In this document: positions 36,838 to 45,430 of the stretch, piece after piece
How the letters are laid out: every line of letters begins with the position of its first letter
Position numbering within the stretch: the first letter of the stretch is position 1
DNA from: Fidelibacterota bacterium
GTDB taxonomy: Bacteria > Fidelibacterota > UBA8477 > JABMPR01
Direction: 5' to 3'
Length of the DNA: 64,000 nucleotides
Assembly (NCBI GenBank): GCA_018650795.1
Contig: JABIFG010000118.1
Coordinates: forward strand, 81,731 to 145,730
The notes under the pieces: generated by a model
Told to the model about the DNA's origin: nothing
The model's database searches: none
The model's input: the letters and a program-made list of their open reading frames with translations, nothing else
Position numbers and translations under genes: made by a program

Positions 36838-38079
36838 ATGGAGCAAGTTGAAATAATCAGTGCGATGGTAACGGGTTACCTGTTATTATCCGGAATTCTC
36901 CTAAAATATTCAGGAAAATTCATTTCGGCCAGCCGACAACACCAATTAGCATTTGTAACAATCATTTTGCTGGTTGTTGGCCTACTCCCACAGCTAAAGC
37001 TGCCCATGGTTGCCCCTGGGGTTATCTTTCATCTTGGGATGATGCTTTTTGCACTGCACCTGAGTGCTTACTATTCAGGGACTTCAAAAAATTCAGCTCA
37101 CATGTATTCAATAATTCTGTTTTTGGCTGCAGTAGTGTTGGCTCCGCTCTCACATTCATTGTTTCTCGATTGGAGTTTAGCCAGATTTCTGATTATGGGT
37201 GGAAGCATGTTGCTCATACTGGAACTTGAAAGAACTGTCACTGATAACTCATACTCCCTCAGCACGGTAGAGAAAAATCTACTCTGGGTCTGGTTTATCT
37301 CGGCTATTATGGGTCTTTGGGAGCCTCAGGTTCAACTTCTTCCTGATCTATTCTTCCTGGTTATCCTTGTTGTTCATCTTGAAAAACGTTGGCCCCGTTT
37401 AAGTGTTCCTGCGCCCCTTATTGCTCTTTATGGCATGCTCATCGTATGGTATGGTCATTATACATTATCAGGTATTCCAGGGCATATTCTCGATATTTCA
37501 AACGTATTTCCACCTTCACGTACCCAGTTGATGCTCATTCTTGCGACGATGATTGGCTTGTTGGTATTTGGACTCCGTAGCAGGAGTATTACCAAACAAT
37601 TTCTGTATCTATTCCTGGCTCAGGAAACCTTGTTACTGGGAACTGGGTTTGAAAATTTCTTCCTGCCATCTCAAGAGTTGATAGGATTGCAGAGAATTCT
37701 TTTATTCGTCTCCTTAATAGGTCTGTTTGTGATGATTGAATCCAGAGAAAATGAGGGTCTGGACAAAGCGGGTTTAAGTGGACTGGTATTGGAGCGTCCA
37801 CGATTCACAAGTAGTGTTATACTGGTCTCCGTATTTTTTGCGTGCTATCCATTGGTCTATATTGCCGGAGATTCCTGGGTAGTAACTGGTATGCTCATTG
37901 GTATCGTCGTTGCGGGTGTGGGATGGACAGCGAATCTCATACGAATTCTTTTCACAAGAGTAGAGCGTGAGTATCGGATACTCAGACCGTCTCTATCCAT
38001 ATGGTCTACGGTAGTATTCACTATCTTATGGGCAGCGGTTGTCCTGCTGGAAATTGTCAGTAGAAATATTCTCAGCTGA
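36838..38079 (+). CDS. Hypothetical polytopic membrane protein
   Basis: 413 aa, many hydrophobic segments. Confidence 0.6.
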   Translation: MEQVEIISAMVTGYLLLSGILLKYSGKFISASRQHQLAFVTIILLVVGLLPQLKLPMVAPGVIFHLGMMLFALHLSAYYSGTSKNSAHMYSIILFLAAVVLAPLSHSLFLDWSLARFLIMGGSMLLILELERTVTDNSYSLSTVEKNLLWVWFISAIMGLWEPQVQLLPDLFFLVILVVHLEKRWPRLSVPAPLIALYGMLIVWYGHYTLSGIPGHILDISNVFPPSRTQLMLILATMIGLLVFGLRSRSITKQFLYLFLAQETLLLGTGFENFFLPSQELIGLQRILLFVSLIGLFVMIESRENEGLDKAGLSGLVLERPRFTSSVILVSVFFACYPLVYIAGDSWVVTGMLIGIVVAGVGWTANLIRILFTRVEREYRILRPSLSIWSTVVFTILWAAVVLLEIVSRNILS

Positions 38080-38109: not shown

Positions 38110-38661
38110 ATGAGACTCACCAAAATATATACACGCTCAGGTGATCAAGGAAAGACTCGTCTGGCAAATGGAGATGAAGTCTCAAAGGACTCACTGAGAG
38201 TAAGCGCATATGGTGATGTGGATGAACTAAATAGCATCATCGGGCTGGTGCTTACCCAGGATCCAGATATAAAACTTGTCCAGATTCTTTCACATATCCA
38301 ACATACTTTATTTGACCTGGGAGGTGAGCTGGCCTCTGCTGGAATGATTACTGACTTAGTTACACAGCAGCATATTCTTGATCTGGAACAACACATCGAT
38401 GACTTGAATGTTGAACTCCCGGCTCTTGAAGAATTTATCCTACCTGGTGGTACAAAATCCGCAGCAACGCTCCATTTGGCTCGCACGGTATGTCGTAGGG
38501 CTGAACGCGTAATAATTGCACTTGCTCAAAGCGATGATGTTGCGCCTGAAATCATCAAATATATGAACCGTCTCTCTGATTTATTATTTGTTATGGCCCG
38601 TTTTGAAAATCATCGCAGCGGTAACCAGGAAGTCTACTGGAAAAACCCCAAAAAAAAGTAG
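38110..38661 (+). CDS. Cob(I)yrinic acid a,c-diamide adenosyltransferase, PduO type
   Basis: KIYTRSGDQGKTRLANGDEVSKDSLRVSAYGDVDELNSIIG; FILPGGTKSAATLHLARTVCRRAER; YMNRLSDLLFVMAR. Confidence 0.92.
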   Translation: MRLTKIYTRSGDQGKTRLANGDEVSKDSLRVSAYGDVDELNSIIGLVLTQDPDIKLVQILSHIQHTLFDLGGELASAGMITDLVTQQHILDLEQHIDDLNVELPALEEFILPGGTKSAATLHLARTVCRRAERVIIALAQSDDVAPEIIKYMNRLSDLLFVMARFENHRSGNQEVYWKNPKKK

Positions 38662-39950: not shown

Positions 39951-41549
39951 TTATTTATACGGGACATGCTCTTGATCAAAATATTCATTGGTCATGGTCT
40001 TCAGTTTTCTGGATAAAAGAATAATCGCTAACAGGTTGGGTAGTGTCATGAAGCCCAGAGCTGCATCTCCAAATTTCCAGACTGCATCCAGACCAGCAAT
40101 TCCTCCTAAGAAGACGAAGAAGACATAGACGCTGCGATAGGGTAGAATGGCTTTGGGTCCAAACAGGTATTCTGTAGACCGATCACCATAAAATGACCAA
40201 CTGATGGCTGTCGAAAGTGCAAAGAGCAGGATTGAAATGGTAATAATTTTATCACCCCAACCGATCATCCAGCTCAGGCCTTCTTTAAATGCAAAGGAAG
40301 TTAATAAACTGCTATTTAAGAGCTCACGGCCCTCGAAAACTCCTGAAGCTACAATGGAATCTGCCAGGGTTGCATCTTGAACACTGATTCGGACAAAAAA
40401 TTCAGTGTGTTCCCAGGCGCCGGTGGAGATGATAGCCAGTCCTGTTAAGGTACAGATAAGGATAGTGTCAATAAAAGGCCCTAGCATAGCCACAGCACCC
40501 TCTCGCACCGGTTGATTCGTCTTGGCAGTGGAATGGGCAATAGCTGCACTTCCCTGACCGGCTTCATTGGAGTACAATCCTCTTTTAATACCATGGAGCA
40601 TAACCAAAAGCACACCACCGCCAACACCACCTGCCATAGCCGGTGGATTAATGGCCATTTTGAAGATCAAGCCAAATGAGTTTGCGATTTGATCAAAATG
40701 TGAGAGTAGAATTAGTAGCGCAGCAAAAATATAAACTCCAGCCATAATGGGAGCGAGATATCCAGTCACTTTACCAATACGCTTGATTCCACCGATTATT
40801 ACTAGACCCACCAGCGTGGCCATGATCAAACCGTTAATTATTTGCTGAACGGAAACTTCAAATCCCTCAAAAACTAAATGCTTAAGTGTAAGCCAGTGTG
40901 TTGAACCGACCACTTGTGATACTTCAGAGTAAATCTGATCGGAGACGGTGAATGACTGGATGGCGTTTCCAGTCGCCATGGAACAGATGATGGTGAAGGC
41001 GGCAAATGCCACAGCGAGCCATCTCCAATTTTTACCCAGACCGTTTTCAATCGTATACATGGGACCACCAGCGGTATCTCCATTGATGTCCATCTCTCTA
41101 TACTTTAAAGCAAGCGTACTTTCAGCAAATTTTAAAGTGGTTCCAAAAAAGGCAGTAATCCACATCCAGAGCAGAGCTCCGGGTCCACCATAATAGATGG
41201 CAATCCCCACACCAGCTATATTGCCAATCCCTACTGTGGCTGAAAGGGCAGTTGTTAAGGCGCGGAAATGATTCAAGTCACCTTCATCATCCGGATTATC
41301 ATAGATACCCATGGTGACTTGAACTCCATGCCAGAAGCGTTTGATCTGAGGAAATCCAAGATAAATCGTCACATAAATTCCAGAACCAACCAGAGCCAAG
41401 ACCATAAATGGAACCGCCCGCTCAGAGGGAAAAGACCAGATTGCATCAAAGAAATCAACTCCGAATGCATATAGGAAAAACGTGATTGTTGCGAATGCAA
41501 GAATACCAGCAGTAGATCGTTTCATGAAAAACCCTTCTGTGAATAACAT
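39951..41549 (-). CDS. Sodium:alanine symporter (AGCS family)
   Basis: TTALSATVGIGNIAGVGIAIYYGGPGALLWMW; GLYSNEAGQGSAAIAHSTAKTNQPVREG. Confidence 0.93.
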   Translation of the reverse strand: MLFTEGFFMKRSTAGILAFATITFFLYAFGVDFFDAIWSFPSERAVPFMVLALVGSGIYVTIYLGFPQIKRFWHGVQVTMGIYDNPDDEGDLNHFRALTTALSATVGIGNIAGVGIAIYYGGPGALLWMWITAFFGTTLKFAESTLALKYREMDINGDTAGGPMYTIENGLGKNWRWLAVAFAAFTIICSMATGNAIQSFTVSDQIYSEVSQVVGSTHWLTLKHLVFEGFEVSVQQIINGLIMATLVGLVIIGGIKRIGKVTGYLAPIMAGVYIFAALLILLSHFDQIANSFGLIFKMAINPPAMAGGVGGGVLLVMLHGIKRGLYSNEAGQGSAAIAHSTAKTNQPVREGAVAMLGPFIDTILICTLTGLAIISTGAWEHTEFFVRISVQDATLADSIVASGVFEGRELLNSSLLTSFAFKEGLSWMIGWGDKIITISILLFALSTAISWSFYGDRSTEYLFGPKAILPYRSVYVFFVFLGGIAGLDAVWKFGDAALGFMTLPNLLAIILLSRKLKTMTNEYFDQEHVPYK

Positions 41550-41720: not shown

Positions 41721-43070
41721 CTACTTGATCAAATTAAGTTTAATAACCGATTTGGTTGAACCAGTACTCAAAAATGCAAAGTAGATACCACTGGGAACGC
41801 CTCTTCCAAGATCATTGGTGCCATTCCAGGTCAGTGTATAATTTCCCTGTTCCAGTGCCGAATTCATCAGGGTCGTAACCAATTGCCCCTGCGCATTATA
41901 TAATCTCAAAGTAGTTTGGCCCGCCTCTTCAAGCTGAAAAGGGATACTGGTGCTTGGATTGAAAGGATTGGGGAAGGCATTTCCCAGCGCGTTTGAACTG
42001 GGAAGTTCTGGTGCATCATCCAGGGCAACTACATTCGCATCATAAAACACCACATCATCAGGGAGGGCGCCTACCGTAAAACTTGACAGGCTCTGCCCAT
42101 CCAATGAGTAGATCTCAAGTATATCAGGGGCAACATAATCGCTGGAACCAACAATAATACTGCCATTCTGAACATTAAAGGAGATGAAGTCATCGGTATG
42201 CGCTATGGCCTGATCTGTTACTAAATTTAGATCAGAATCAAGCGGTACGATGGAGCTGGCATAGGTACGATGGGGCACATCATTAATAATTGCGATATCA
42301 ACTCGATCACTATTGTAGGTGCCCTGGTCGACAGCCAGGATAGCTCCTGTTTGTAGATCGATTCTGGAAGTCCCGGTAAAAATCTCCCAGGCATCATTGT
42401 AGTAAACCGAGGTCACATAGAGATTATTGTTGGAGAGAGCCATTGACCCAGGACCAGGAGTTACCTCATATGTCTCAATCACTTCCGGAGTCGGTGAACT
42501 AATATCCAATTGGATTACCCTATTATCTGAGCTATAGTCAGCCTGGATGTTCATGGAAACGAACAATTGATCGCCATCAATCAGCAATTCCTCAGGGAGA
42601 CCAGCCATGAGAAAGGTATCCACCACTGTATTCGTAGTGAGATCAATAATAAGGAGTGCTTCAAGACTCCAACTACTTATGAATCCACGTTCCGGGGATC
42701 TTTGAATTTTCATGTAACGGGGGCTGGCACCGGCGAGATCAATATCTTCTAACTGGCTGGGACCATTTTCTAAATCCAGAACCCGAACTTTATGCGAGTT
42801 ATTCATGATGATGTACAATTTATGATCGTAAAGTGAGAAGGATTGACCCACATCACCCAGGGGATTGCTCCCCGTATCCCAAATCAGGGGGCCATCCAAA
42901 GTCGCAAGAGATTCATCAAGGGACCATAAGGATGAATTTGCTTGCCCGAAGTTGCCTTCACAAAGAACGTAATAATCTCCAGCAATCGAAGGCTTAATGA
43001 TGAGGAATAAGAGGGTAGTAAGAATTAATGATCGTAAGATTGTCTTCACAGTTGTTTCCTTGTCTATCAT
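41721..43070 (-). CDS. BtuG-like/YncE-type beta-propeller with T9SS-type C-terminal sorting domain
   Basis: Signal peptide; YYVLCEGNFGQANSSLWSLDES...GDVGQSFSLYDHKLYIIMNNSHKVRVLDLENG (DUF5074/YncE-like); C-terminus NAFPNPFNPSTSIPFQLEEAGQTTLRLYNAQGQLV...GVPSGIYFAFLS. Confidence 0.78.
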   Translation of the reverse strand: MIDKETTVKTILRSLILTTLLFLIIKPSIAGDYYVLCEGNFGQANSSLWSLDESLATLDGPLIWDTGSNPLGDVGQSFSLYDHKLYIIMNNSHKVRVLDLENGPSQLEDIDLAGASPRYMKIQRSPERGFISSWSLEALLIIDLTTNTVVDTFLMAGLPEELLIDGDQLFVSMNIQADYSSDNRVIQLDISSPTPEVIETYEVTPGPGSMALSNNNLYVTSVYYNDAWEIFTGTSRIDLQTGAILAVDQGTYNSDRVDIAIINDVPHRTYASSIVPLDSDLNLVTDQAIAHTDDFISFNVQNGSIIVGSSDYVAPDILEIYSLDGQSLSSFTVGALPDDVVFYDANVVALDDAPELPSSNALGNAFPNPFNPSTSIPFQLEEAGQTTLRLYNAQGQLVTTLMNSALEQGNYTLTWNGTNDLGRGVPSGIYFAFLSTGSTKSVIKLNLIK

Positions 43071-43113
43071 TTGATGTATTCGTTTATGGAGATACTAAAT
43101 AAAGTCTCTGCTA

Positions 43114-45237
43114 TCATTCAAAATTAAAGGTGGCAGTAACGCGCATTGAGCGTCCGGGTTCAGGATACCCGCGTATGCTTTCATACTGGACATCCAGTAG
43201 ATTATCGCCAGCAATTACCAGGGTAAGCCCTCCAAAAGCGGCACTCCAGGTGTGTGCTACACTTAATGACCATAATTCTGCAGCTTTCAGGATCGTGTCC
43301 AGGGGATAATCATACATGCTGATCCGATCAGATACATAATTATACTGGAGGTTGATTTCAAATTTTGATGGAGACCAGTTTATTCCGAAAGCTGATGTTT
43401 GAGTGGGGGCATAGCGCATGGGTTTCTGACGAATCTCATCAAAGGTATGAATCAGGCTGAGATGAGCAAAAGTCGAGAGCCGCCAAAGGGGCTTGTTCAG
43501 TTGCCAGATAAGCTTGCTGCTCTCCCGATCAGCAGACTGAACATTTTCTGGTTGCCAGTAAGAGTGAACCGGCATCCATTGGATCAAATTGGCACTTTCT
43601 TTCTTTTGCCACTGGAACATGAACTGACCCAGATCGTCGAGGTCAAATTGTATTTGGGCAGTTGTTACCTGAGTCTCCTCTGCTAGGAGATCTGGATTGC
43701 CGCCTGGCCACCAATACAGATCATTAAAACTAGGGTAACGATACATATCTCCCCGGCTGGCAGCAATTTTTGTCAATGGTCCCCACCTAAGTGGAATCTG
43801 AATCTGGAGGTCTGCCAGGACTTGCTCAAATAGACCCGGACTTGCCTGGAATTTCAAAGATGGGACAACCTTAAGGTTTTTGATCAGTTGAAAGCCAGGC
43901 TTAATTGACGCGGCATAGCTCATCCGTTTATGAGCACTTGTTGCGCTACTCTGGATCTCATCCTGACTTAATGCGAGATCAGTGAGCAATTCGATTCCCC
44001 TGGCATAGGATTGCATATTACTGATATTCAAGTGGTAACTGGAGAGCTTATGATCACTATCCAGATTTAATAATGGATTAACATAATTTTCATGAGAATT
44101 ACGTAACGAAAGCTGCAAACGGGTGCTGCCTGAGGGACGAATCCAACTCAGAGCAAACCCAATGAGTTTGAGTTGATCCTCCCGATGGGACAAGGTGTCT
44201 GGTGACCAAACCAGGCCAGCAACTCCACGGGATTGTTGTGACTCAAGAGCAGTCAACTGCCAGAACAGATCTGGACGAAGCATCTTACGTAGTTTTAATG
44301 AGACAAAACGCTGGTCCAGGTCATTATTTTTACGAAAACTGCTTTCGTGATCCCAGAATACTCTGTAGTTGCCTGCTTCACGACGTTGCCCAAATTGAAG
44401 TGAGGTCCAAATACCGGAAATTTGCTTTCTGAGATTAACATCGTATGCCTGATGACCAAAACTACCATTACTGATACTCAAGTGACTCTTTTGCTCCCCG
44501 GATCCCAACTTGACGATCCCATCACTTCCTCCGCTCGTGCTGTGGGAAATATCATAGGGGATGTAACTCATCCTTTCCACAAAGGGGAGTGGGAGTTGTG
44601 AGATGTCAGCTTCTCCATTTTGGGCCGAGGTAATATCGATACCATCGATTAATACTTTTGTGTGAGAACTGGGACCTCCATCCATACTTAGGGTACTGAT
44701 ACCTGCTGGTCCCCCATAACTTTTGATGGAAATTCCTGGAATGCGCCCAAGCATTTTGCTATGATCAATACTGCCAGATCCACTGGATTTAGAAAAGCGG
44801 CTGATTGGGGCTAGAACTGTTCCCGTAGGTGATTTATTCTCAGCCAGGATTTCAATACTCTCCAGGGAGAGAATGACTGGGGAAAGTCTGATGTTACTAT
44901 CTCGGAGAAGTGATTTTATGGAAAAAGTTTGGCTCTCATATCCAATGCGCTGCACCATAACGGAGTCATTTTCTGAGAGTTGAGCTGAGTACCAGAAGTA
45001 ACCATTCTCATCGGATAGAATAAATACGTTTGAGGGTGTAAATATAAGCGATACAAACGGAATAGATTGACTGTCCTGGTCAAGCGTCTGGCCGTAGATT
45101 GTGTGATGAATAGGTAGAGTCGCAGGGGCTGAAAAGGCAGAGAGAAAAGAAAAGTGCAACAATAACAGAGCATAAAAAAAGCCCCGTCTCAAGTTGGGGC
45201 TTTTTTTTGAATGTGTCCTGGTTCTCAGGCGCATCAT
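43114..45237 (-). CDS. TonB-dependent receptor, BtuB-like cobalamin receptor
   Basis: N-terminal carboxypeptidase-regulatory-like domain, plug (IPGISIKSYGGPAGISTLSMDGGPSSHTKVLIDGIDITSAQNGEADISQLP), beta-barrel; C-term ends in F-E; downstream of a cobalamin riboswitch. Confidence 0.87.
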   Translation of the reverse strand: MMRLRTRTHSKKSPNLRRGFFYALLLLHFSFLSAFSAPATLPIHHTIYGQTLDQDSQSIPFVSLIFTPSNVFILSDENGYFWYSAQLSENDSVMVQRIGYESQTFSIKSLLRDSNIRLSPVILSLESIEILAENKSPTGTVLAPISRFSKSSGSGSIDHSKMLGRIPGISIKSYGGPAGISTLSMDGGPSSHTKVLIDGIDITSAQNGEADISQLPLPFVERMSYIPYDISHSTSGGSDGIVKLGSGEQKSHLSISNGSFGHQAYDVNLRKQISGIWTSLQFGQRREAGNYRVFWDHESSFRKNNDLDQRFVSLKLRKMLRPDLFWQLTALESQQSRGVAGLVWSPDTLSHREDQLKLIGFALSWIRPSGSTRLQLSLRNSHENYVNPLLNLDSDHKLSSYHLNISNMQSYARGIELLTDLALSQDEIQSSATSAHKRMSYAASIKPGFQLIKNLKVVPSLKFQASPGLFEQVLADLQIQIPLRWGPLTKIAASRGDMYRYPSFNDLYWWPGGNPDLLAEETQVTTAQIQFDLDDLGQFMFQWQKKESANLIQWMPVHSYWQPENVQSADRESSKLIWQLNKPLWRLSTFAHLSLIHTFDEIRQKPMRYAPTQTSAFGINWSPSKFEINLQYNYVSDRISMYDYPLDTILKAAELWSLSVAHTWSAAFGGLTLVIAGDNLLDVQYESIRGYPEPGRSMRVTATFNFE
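45173..45208 (-). terminator. Intrinsic terminator (riboswitch expression platform) inside the 5' coding region of btuB-like gene
   Basis: Minus strand aaaaaaaagccccaacttgagacggggcttttttt. Confidence 0.7.
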
Positions 45238-45274
45238 GCAGGTCCCTTTTCTCGCGAAGGTTCATGGTAATTCT

Positions 45275-45430
45275 CTTAGACAAGTATCCTGACTTCCAGA
45301 TCATCCTCCGCTGACGCCTTCCCTCAATTTGAAGTGGCCTTTATCAGCATTGTCCCTGGTTACAGTAGCGCGACTGTGCCCGACTTTCACGGGCTTCCTT
45401 GTGCTAGGAGACGTTTACAAAAATCAGTCT
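45275..45430 (-). ncRNA. Cobalamin (AdoCbl-type) riboswitch
   Basis: Minus strand: ...ggaagcccgtgaaagtcgggcacagtcgcgctactgtaacc...gccact...gggaaggcg...ctggaagtcaggatacttgtc; matches the conserved B12-box architecture. Confidence 0.93.

Follow-up and report, generated by a model that had tools for sequence, protein, structure and literature searches.

Introduction

In Bacteroides thetaiotaomicron, BtuG2 is known to cap the BtuB receptor as a lid on the cell surface (PMC6143338, PMC10404256), and this lid has been proposed to hinge on its N-terminal linker in BtuB2G2 (PMC10404256). BtuG has been described as exclusive to Bacteroidetes, and likewise lipoprotein-capped receptors (PMC6143338, PMC10404256). 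BtuG2 and BtuG3 are lipoproteins anchored at the N-terminal cysteine, and BtuG1 (BtuGH), in which a C-terminal extension of the BtuG propeller forms a second B12-binding domain, BtuH, is still a lipoprotein (PMC10404256, PMC12751083). The DUF4465 B12-binding protein BtuJ and its relatives are extracytoplasmic B12 scavengers beyond gut Bacteroides, but they are jelly-roll proteins unrelated to the propeller and are mostly predicted lipoproteins (PMC13398666). In this study we analysed a 64-kb stretch of DNA (the window, positions 81,731 to 145,730 of contig JABIFG010000118.1) from a Fidelibacterota bacterium whose genome assembly (GCA_018650795.1; 4.4 Mb, 355 contigs) is about 91% complete. The window contains a cobalamin riboswitch followed by genes for a BtuB-like TonB-dependent receptor and a BtuG-like beta-propeller, and this propeller ends in a sorting domain of the type IX secretion system (T9SS). 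It shares the predicted fold, most ligand-loop positions, the adjacency to btuB and the B12 riboswitch with BtuG2 and BtuG3, but its signal peptide is a plain one, its C-terminus bears a T9SS tail and it belongs to a different phylum; like BtuG1 it has a C-terminal extension, which here is the sorting domain instead of BtuH. We consider it quite probable that the locus encodes a BtuBG system under riboswitch control in which the lid sits on a changed anchor, the T9SS tail having replaced the lipid.

Results and discussion

The elements of the locus are all on the minus strand, in the order riboswitch, receptor, propeller, with a gap of 43 bp between the two open reading frames (ORFs). They are as follows.

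45433-45262, minus strand: cobalamin riboswitch aptamer (RF00174), from an Rfam match
45260-45245, minus strand: putative P13 hairpin CCTT-CGCGAGAA-AAGG, from the sequence, with a presumed regulatory function
45237-43114, minus strand: BtuB-like TonB-dependent receptor, 707 amino acids, from the ORF, family models, a PDB match and the predicted fold
43070-41721, minus strand: the entire called ORF of the BtuG-like propeller, including its T9SS type A tail, from the ORF, TIGR04183 and sequence, profile and fold matches to BtuG
42981-43049, minus strand: plain Sec signal peptide of the propeller, from the probable start to ...PSIA, with no lipobox cysteine, from the sequence
42036-42980, minus strand: seven-bladed beta-propeller, residues 31-345, from the predicted structure
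41976-42035, minus strand: flexible linker, residues 346-365 (predicted local distance difference test, pLDDT, below 50 over residues 350-369)
41724-41975, minus strand: T9SS type A sorting domain, residues 366-449 (PNPFN...SGIYFAFLS...KLNLIK), from TIGR04183

The riboswitch scored 75.4 bits over the full RF00174 model (1-189), for which the gathering score is 31.5 (E 9e-17), which agrees with the cobalamin riboswitch that the earlier reading of the sequence alone had placed ahead of the receptor gene. The window gave no other Rfam match, and no second cobalamin riboswitch was found in the genome. Downstream of the aptamer, the putative P13 hairpin would cover part of the btuB Shine-Dalgarno sequence (AAAGGGA), and its loop, CGCG, is complementary to the CGCG of the aptamer loop L5; other families carry CCCG in L5 and CGGG in the hairpin loop. 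A cognate hairpin was present in 17 of the 20 loci with a readable L5, as compared to about 0.7 expected from shuffled sequences, most of these loci being near-identical close relatives. Because the hairpin could cover part of the Shine-Dalgarno sequence and its loop could pair with L5, the riboswitch likely acts by translational control of btuB. Scans for sigma-70 promoters and terminators gave chance-level results only.

The receptor is composed of a signal peptide, a CarboxypepD_reg-like domain (residues 46-125), a plug (about 158-226) and a barrel. It matched TonB plug and TIGR01779/BtuB models (E 2e-26, under the NCBI full-length cut-offs), and a sequence search of the PDB reached solved BtuB with an E-value of 3e-18. 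In the fold search with the predicted model (mean pLDDT 83.9), ranks 1-18 were all BtuB, and PqqU and siderophore receptors came next. Solved BtuB is thus the nearest relative of the receptor in both sequence and predicted fold, as had been proposed.

The propeller was searched in the same ways. BtuG entries came first in the single-sequence PDB search (E 2.4e-12), a profile of 51 propeller relatives matched BtuG with E-values of about 1e-33 to 1e-30, and the predicted model (mean pLDDT 90) found BtuG in all of ranks 1-16 (E 1e-16 to 1e-14). The next structures were one archaeal propeller at 2e-14 and others at 1e-9 or worse. BtuG is therefore the nearest solved relative by profile and predicted fold, by a wide margin. 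The sequence-only reading had called the protein a YncE/DUF5074-like propeller; the predicted fold is seven-bladed and BtuG-like, and DUF5074 itself stayed below its threshold (18.1 against 27.2). The true start is probably the GTG at 43049, giving 442 amino acids, instead of the ATG at 43070, since relatives begin at codon 8 of the ORF in the window. As the sequence-only reading had noted, the signal peptide is an ordinary one, and because it lacks a lipobox cysteine the protein is to be regarded as a BtuG homologue with another anchor and not as a BtuG lipoprotein.

The other anchor is found at the C-terminus. Residues 366-445 matched TIGR04183 with 37.8 bits against a curated cut-off of 23, so the proposed type IX-like sorting tail is confirmed by a dedicated model; the tail lies at the PF18962 cut-off (27 bits). 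The machinery that would read this tail, which had been named as a point to check, is encoded in the genome: SprA, a PorU of full length (one of five C25 peptidase stretches, scoring 660.9 bits where 420 are required), at least 16 PorV-family genes over the cut-off and about 130 TIGR04183 matches. The propeller shares the Sec signal peptide, the TIGR04183 C-terminal domain and the presence of SprA, PorU and PorV in the genome with known T9SS type A cargo. To our knowledge, no cargo of this kind has been described that caps a TonB-dependent vitamin receptor as its lid.

Two anchors were found across the family. The named relatives of the propeller nearly all belong to Candidatus Neomarinimicrobiota/Marinimicrobia and the remainder to Bacteroidota. 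The phylum of the window is accordingly taken to be Marinimicrobia, one of the three groups (with KSB1 and Calditrichaeota) in which the sequence-only reading had suggested looking for the same fusion. We read the ends of 100 propellers of the phylum, including that of the window; simple rules, and not a trained predictor, served to recognise signal peptides and lipoboxes, and ambiguous cases were settled by eye. The survey found the arrangement of the window elsewhere in Marinimicrobia, with 32 propellers having a plain signal peptide, a C-terminal linker and a T9SS tail. Sixty carry a cysteine after the signal sequence and a polar N-terminal linker, with no tail; two such Marinimicrobia lipoproteins (L054 and L057) share the propeller and its place behind btuB with the window and differ in the anchor. 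The remaining propellers comprise one with both anchors (L069), one with neither (L077), four with a dockerin-type C-terminal region and two that are cut off. Three of the dockerin forms (L098, L099 and L105) have a dockerin type I C-terminal region replacing the tail or the lipobox, and L135 has a dockerin together with a T9SS tail. A TIGR04183 scan of 51 family members matched 26, 27 having been called tailed beforehand, and none of the 19 lipoprotein forms. In the lipid form a median of 13 residues separates the cysteine from the propeller, whereas the tailed form has no N-terminal linker and a median of 22 residues between the propeller end and NPFN. All 25 Bacteroidota loci read, which were taken from a profile search of genome contigs, encode lipoproteins and none is tailed.

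In the Marinimicrobia propellers, the two export routes are used almost exclusively of each other. Fisher's test gave 2e-19 for the mutual exclusion of lipobox and tail, computed on sequences that are related to each other; since the propellers share kinship, a tree is the better test. The tree, a quick one with support from the Shimodaira-Hasegawa-like approximate likelihood ratio test only, showed about eight anchor switches, at least five of which are forced by well-supported branches. In the genus of the window alone there are 13 tailed propellers and two lipoproteins (L054, with a non-canonical lipobox, FFQRC, and L057) on one branch. The explanation that the tail merely tracks the presence of T9SS was rejected, because SprA is nearly universal in the phylum (233 of 245 genomes, and all 94 of high quality) and lipoprotein forms also occur in SprA-positive genomes. 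Judged from these sequences, BtuG-type capture proteins exist outside Bacteroidota and their anchor is one that has been exchanged repeatedly.

Traces of such exchanges may be preserved in family f31, where L069 combines a lipoprotein N-terminus like that of L073 and L076 with a tail like that of L064. The frame of L077 stops at the propeller and directly joins the sequence that is found after the tail in L064 and L069. The tail appears to behave as a cassette, the lipobox and the tail having been recombined or cleanly cut out among L069, L077, L064 and L073, in a comparison of metagenome-assembled genomes.

These data bear on the explanation that the FlgD-like tail is a structural add-on which is not read as a T9SS signal, leaving the protein in the periplasm. 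In Pfam, the tail does score better with FlgD_ig than with Por_Secre_tail, and L077 has lost the tail and also has no lipobox. But the tail passed the curated T9SS model, SprA, PorU and the PorV family are present, and the tail and the lipobox exclude each other, so we regard this explanation as hardly credible.

For a T9SS-anchored lid, the following mechanism is proposed. When B12 is scarce, the riboswitch would permit translation of btuB, and the propeller gene behind it would be co-expressed. The propeller would leave the cytoplasm via Sec with its ordinary signal peptide and fold in the periplasm; its C-terminal domain would then carry it through the SprA translocon with PorV. PorU would cut off this domain, leaving the propeller tied to surface lipopolysaccharide via a C-terminal linker of about 20 residues. 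The tethered propeller would capture corrinoids and sit as a lid on BtuB, which would import them with TonB. We infer B12 binding, BtuB docking, T9SS export, cleavage of the C-terminal domain, attachment to lipopolysaccharide and equivalence of the hinge. The termini of a propeller normally meet in the same blade, so the tether may change ends with the hinge kept in place, and this would explain the repeated anchor swaps in these lineages.

Several points weigh against this mechanism: the window propeller departs from the family at two pocket positions, T9SS substrates may be released instead of attached, and a BtuC-type importer is lacking. As for the pocket, which is numbered here after BtuG2 (PMC10404256), 27 of 32 tailed relatives have W at position 194 and 30 of 32 have Y at position 316, where the window propeller has Y179 and I296, respectively; W272 and Y239 have no confident alignment with the window propeller. 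The ligand loop Asn54-Thr64 of BtuG2 corresponds to window residues 37-47, with E38, G39, N40 and N45 kept, and R133, E180 and Y335 correspond to R118, E160 and Y312. Most of the ligand-loop and pocket positions are thus conserved, and tailed and lipid forms alike retain residues aligned with the loop as well as E55, G56, G89, P132, R133, E180, D334 and Y335. The loss of two conserved pocket aromatics, the 22% identity to BtuG2 and the breadth of the DUF5074 and YncE families would fit a propeller that has another role, such as surface adhesion or receptor assembly, and does not bind B12. However, BtuG is the closest solved relative, the ligand-loop residues are kept across the family, and the B12 riboswitch stands ahead of the propeller even where no BtuB was found, at 24 loci; another role is very unlikely.

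The proteins with a T9SS C-terminal domain are not all retained at the surface, and some substrates are freed after removal of this domain. The tailed propeller could thus be exported by T9SS and set free to scavenge B12 in soluble form, coming back to BtuB with its cargo, and the long, disordered linker is compatible with such release. The locus organization argues otherwise: one receptor and one propeller lie side by side under one riboswitch, on the same strand and in the order riboswitch, btuB, propeller, at 57 loci. In addition, the anchor that takes the place of the tail in other members is a lipid, which holds the protein on the surface, and a freed protein would hand the vitamin to neighbours. 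Release is therefore improbable in our judgement, and a tethered lid remains the preferred reading.

The inner-membrane step of the B12 route is lacking at present, because the genome has no BtuC-type importer. The ATP-binding cassette importer BtuFCD, which the sequence-only reading had led one to look for, did not turn up, with no FecCD (BtuC) match in the genome. Among the 94 high-quality genomes of the phylum, 12 have FecCD matches, which are mostly weak; most Marinimicrobia thus lack BtuC, whereas BtuB and the riboswitch are common among them. The genome of the window probably uses B12, since it has six B12-binding-domain matches. A polytopic membrane protein of 413 amino acids without family matches is encoded at 36838-38079 on the plus strand, 31 bp upstream of the adenosyltransferase gene listed below. 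It was rejected as an inner-membrane B12 importer because it has no family match, is genus-restricted apart from one weak match in the same family, and is present also where no btuG was found.

The riboswitch and the propeller also occur in other combinations. At the 24 loci mentioned above, which are additional to the 57, the riboswitch is directly ahead of a lone propeller, and BtuB gave no match at 1e-10 in these 24 genomes, a threshold that more distant receptors could escape. Riboswitches with a lone BtuG-type lipoprotein were seen at L109, L111-L119, L121, L128, L130, L131, L133, L134, L136, L137 and others, and several of the orphan propellers occupy the syntenic place of btuB-btuG in relatives. 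At L113 (64-2720), a TonB receptor, whose best models are heme and then B12, and a 172-amino-acid lipoprotein of no known family are encoded 1.8-4.4 kb upstream of the orphan riboswitch-propeller; they are a possible alternative partner of the orphan. Several families have a riboswitch and BtuB without a recognisable propeller. Three more distant groups have divergent partners. In one of them, another family of the taxonomic order to which the window belongs, a T9SS-tailed YncE-like propeller (L275, 2358-3665, minus strand) lies behind a riboswitch and a divergent TonB receptor and is a second tailed case. In the other two, a lipoprotein propeller lies behind a divergent receptor (L278) or alone (L277). 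Riboswitches also precede a B12-independent methionine synthase-like gene (L279) and a ribonucleotide reductase-like gene with an ATP-cone start (L280), both judged from sequence; as expected, these gene types would fit B12 control.

Two neighbouring genes of the locus are conserved in the genus.

39951-41549, minus strand: sodium:alanine symporter gene, next downstream on the same strand after a gap of 171 bp, position conserved in the genus
38110-38661, plus strand: PduO-type cobalamin adenosyltransferase, a neighbour kept across the genus (PduO_Nterm 214 bits)

The symporter is probably not part of B12 uptake. The adenosyltransferase that had been pointed out nearby is real, but it is a neighbour and not co-transcribed with btuBG, because it lies on the opposite strand and beyond three other genes.

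Conclusions

In the open-access literature searched, no description of a T9SS-tailed BtuG or of the present arrangement turned up, whether in work on BtuG and type IX secretion, on BtuG and Marinimicrobia or on T9SS and cobalamin. For the family as a whole, we lean towards a vitamin-receptor lid whose tether may sit at either end, as an N-terminal lipid or as a C-terminal link to lipopolysaccharide made by T9SS. These two unrelated surface-export systems would have been exchanged several times while the receptor, the riboswitch and the locus stayed, and a further form of the family would have given up the receptor for a different partner. Contrary to the published exclusivity, BtuG-type vitamin capture appears to extend beyond the gut and Bacteroidota into a widespread ocean phylum. 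T9SS gains a likely role in vitamin uptake, as far as sequences can tell, and the natural anchor swaps in one family, even in one genus, could show how far the lid of a receptor depends on one kind of tether.

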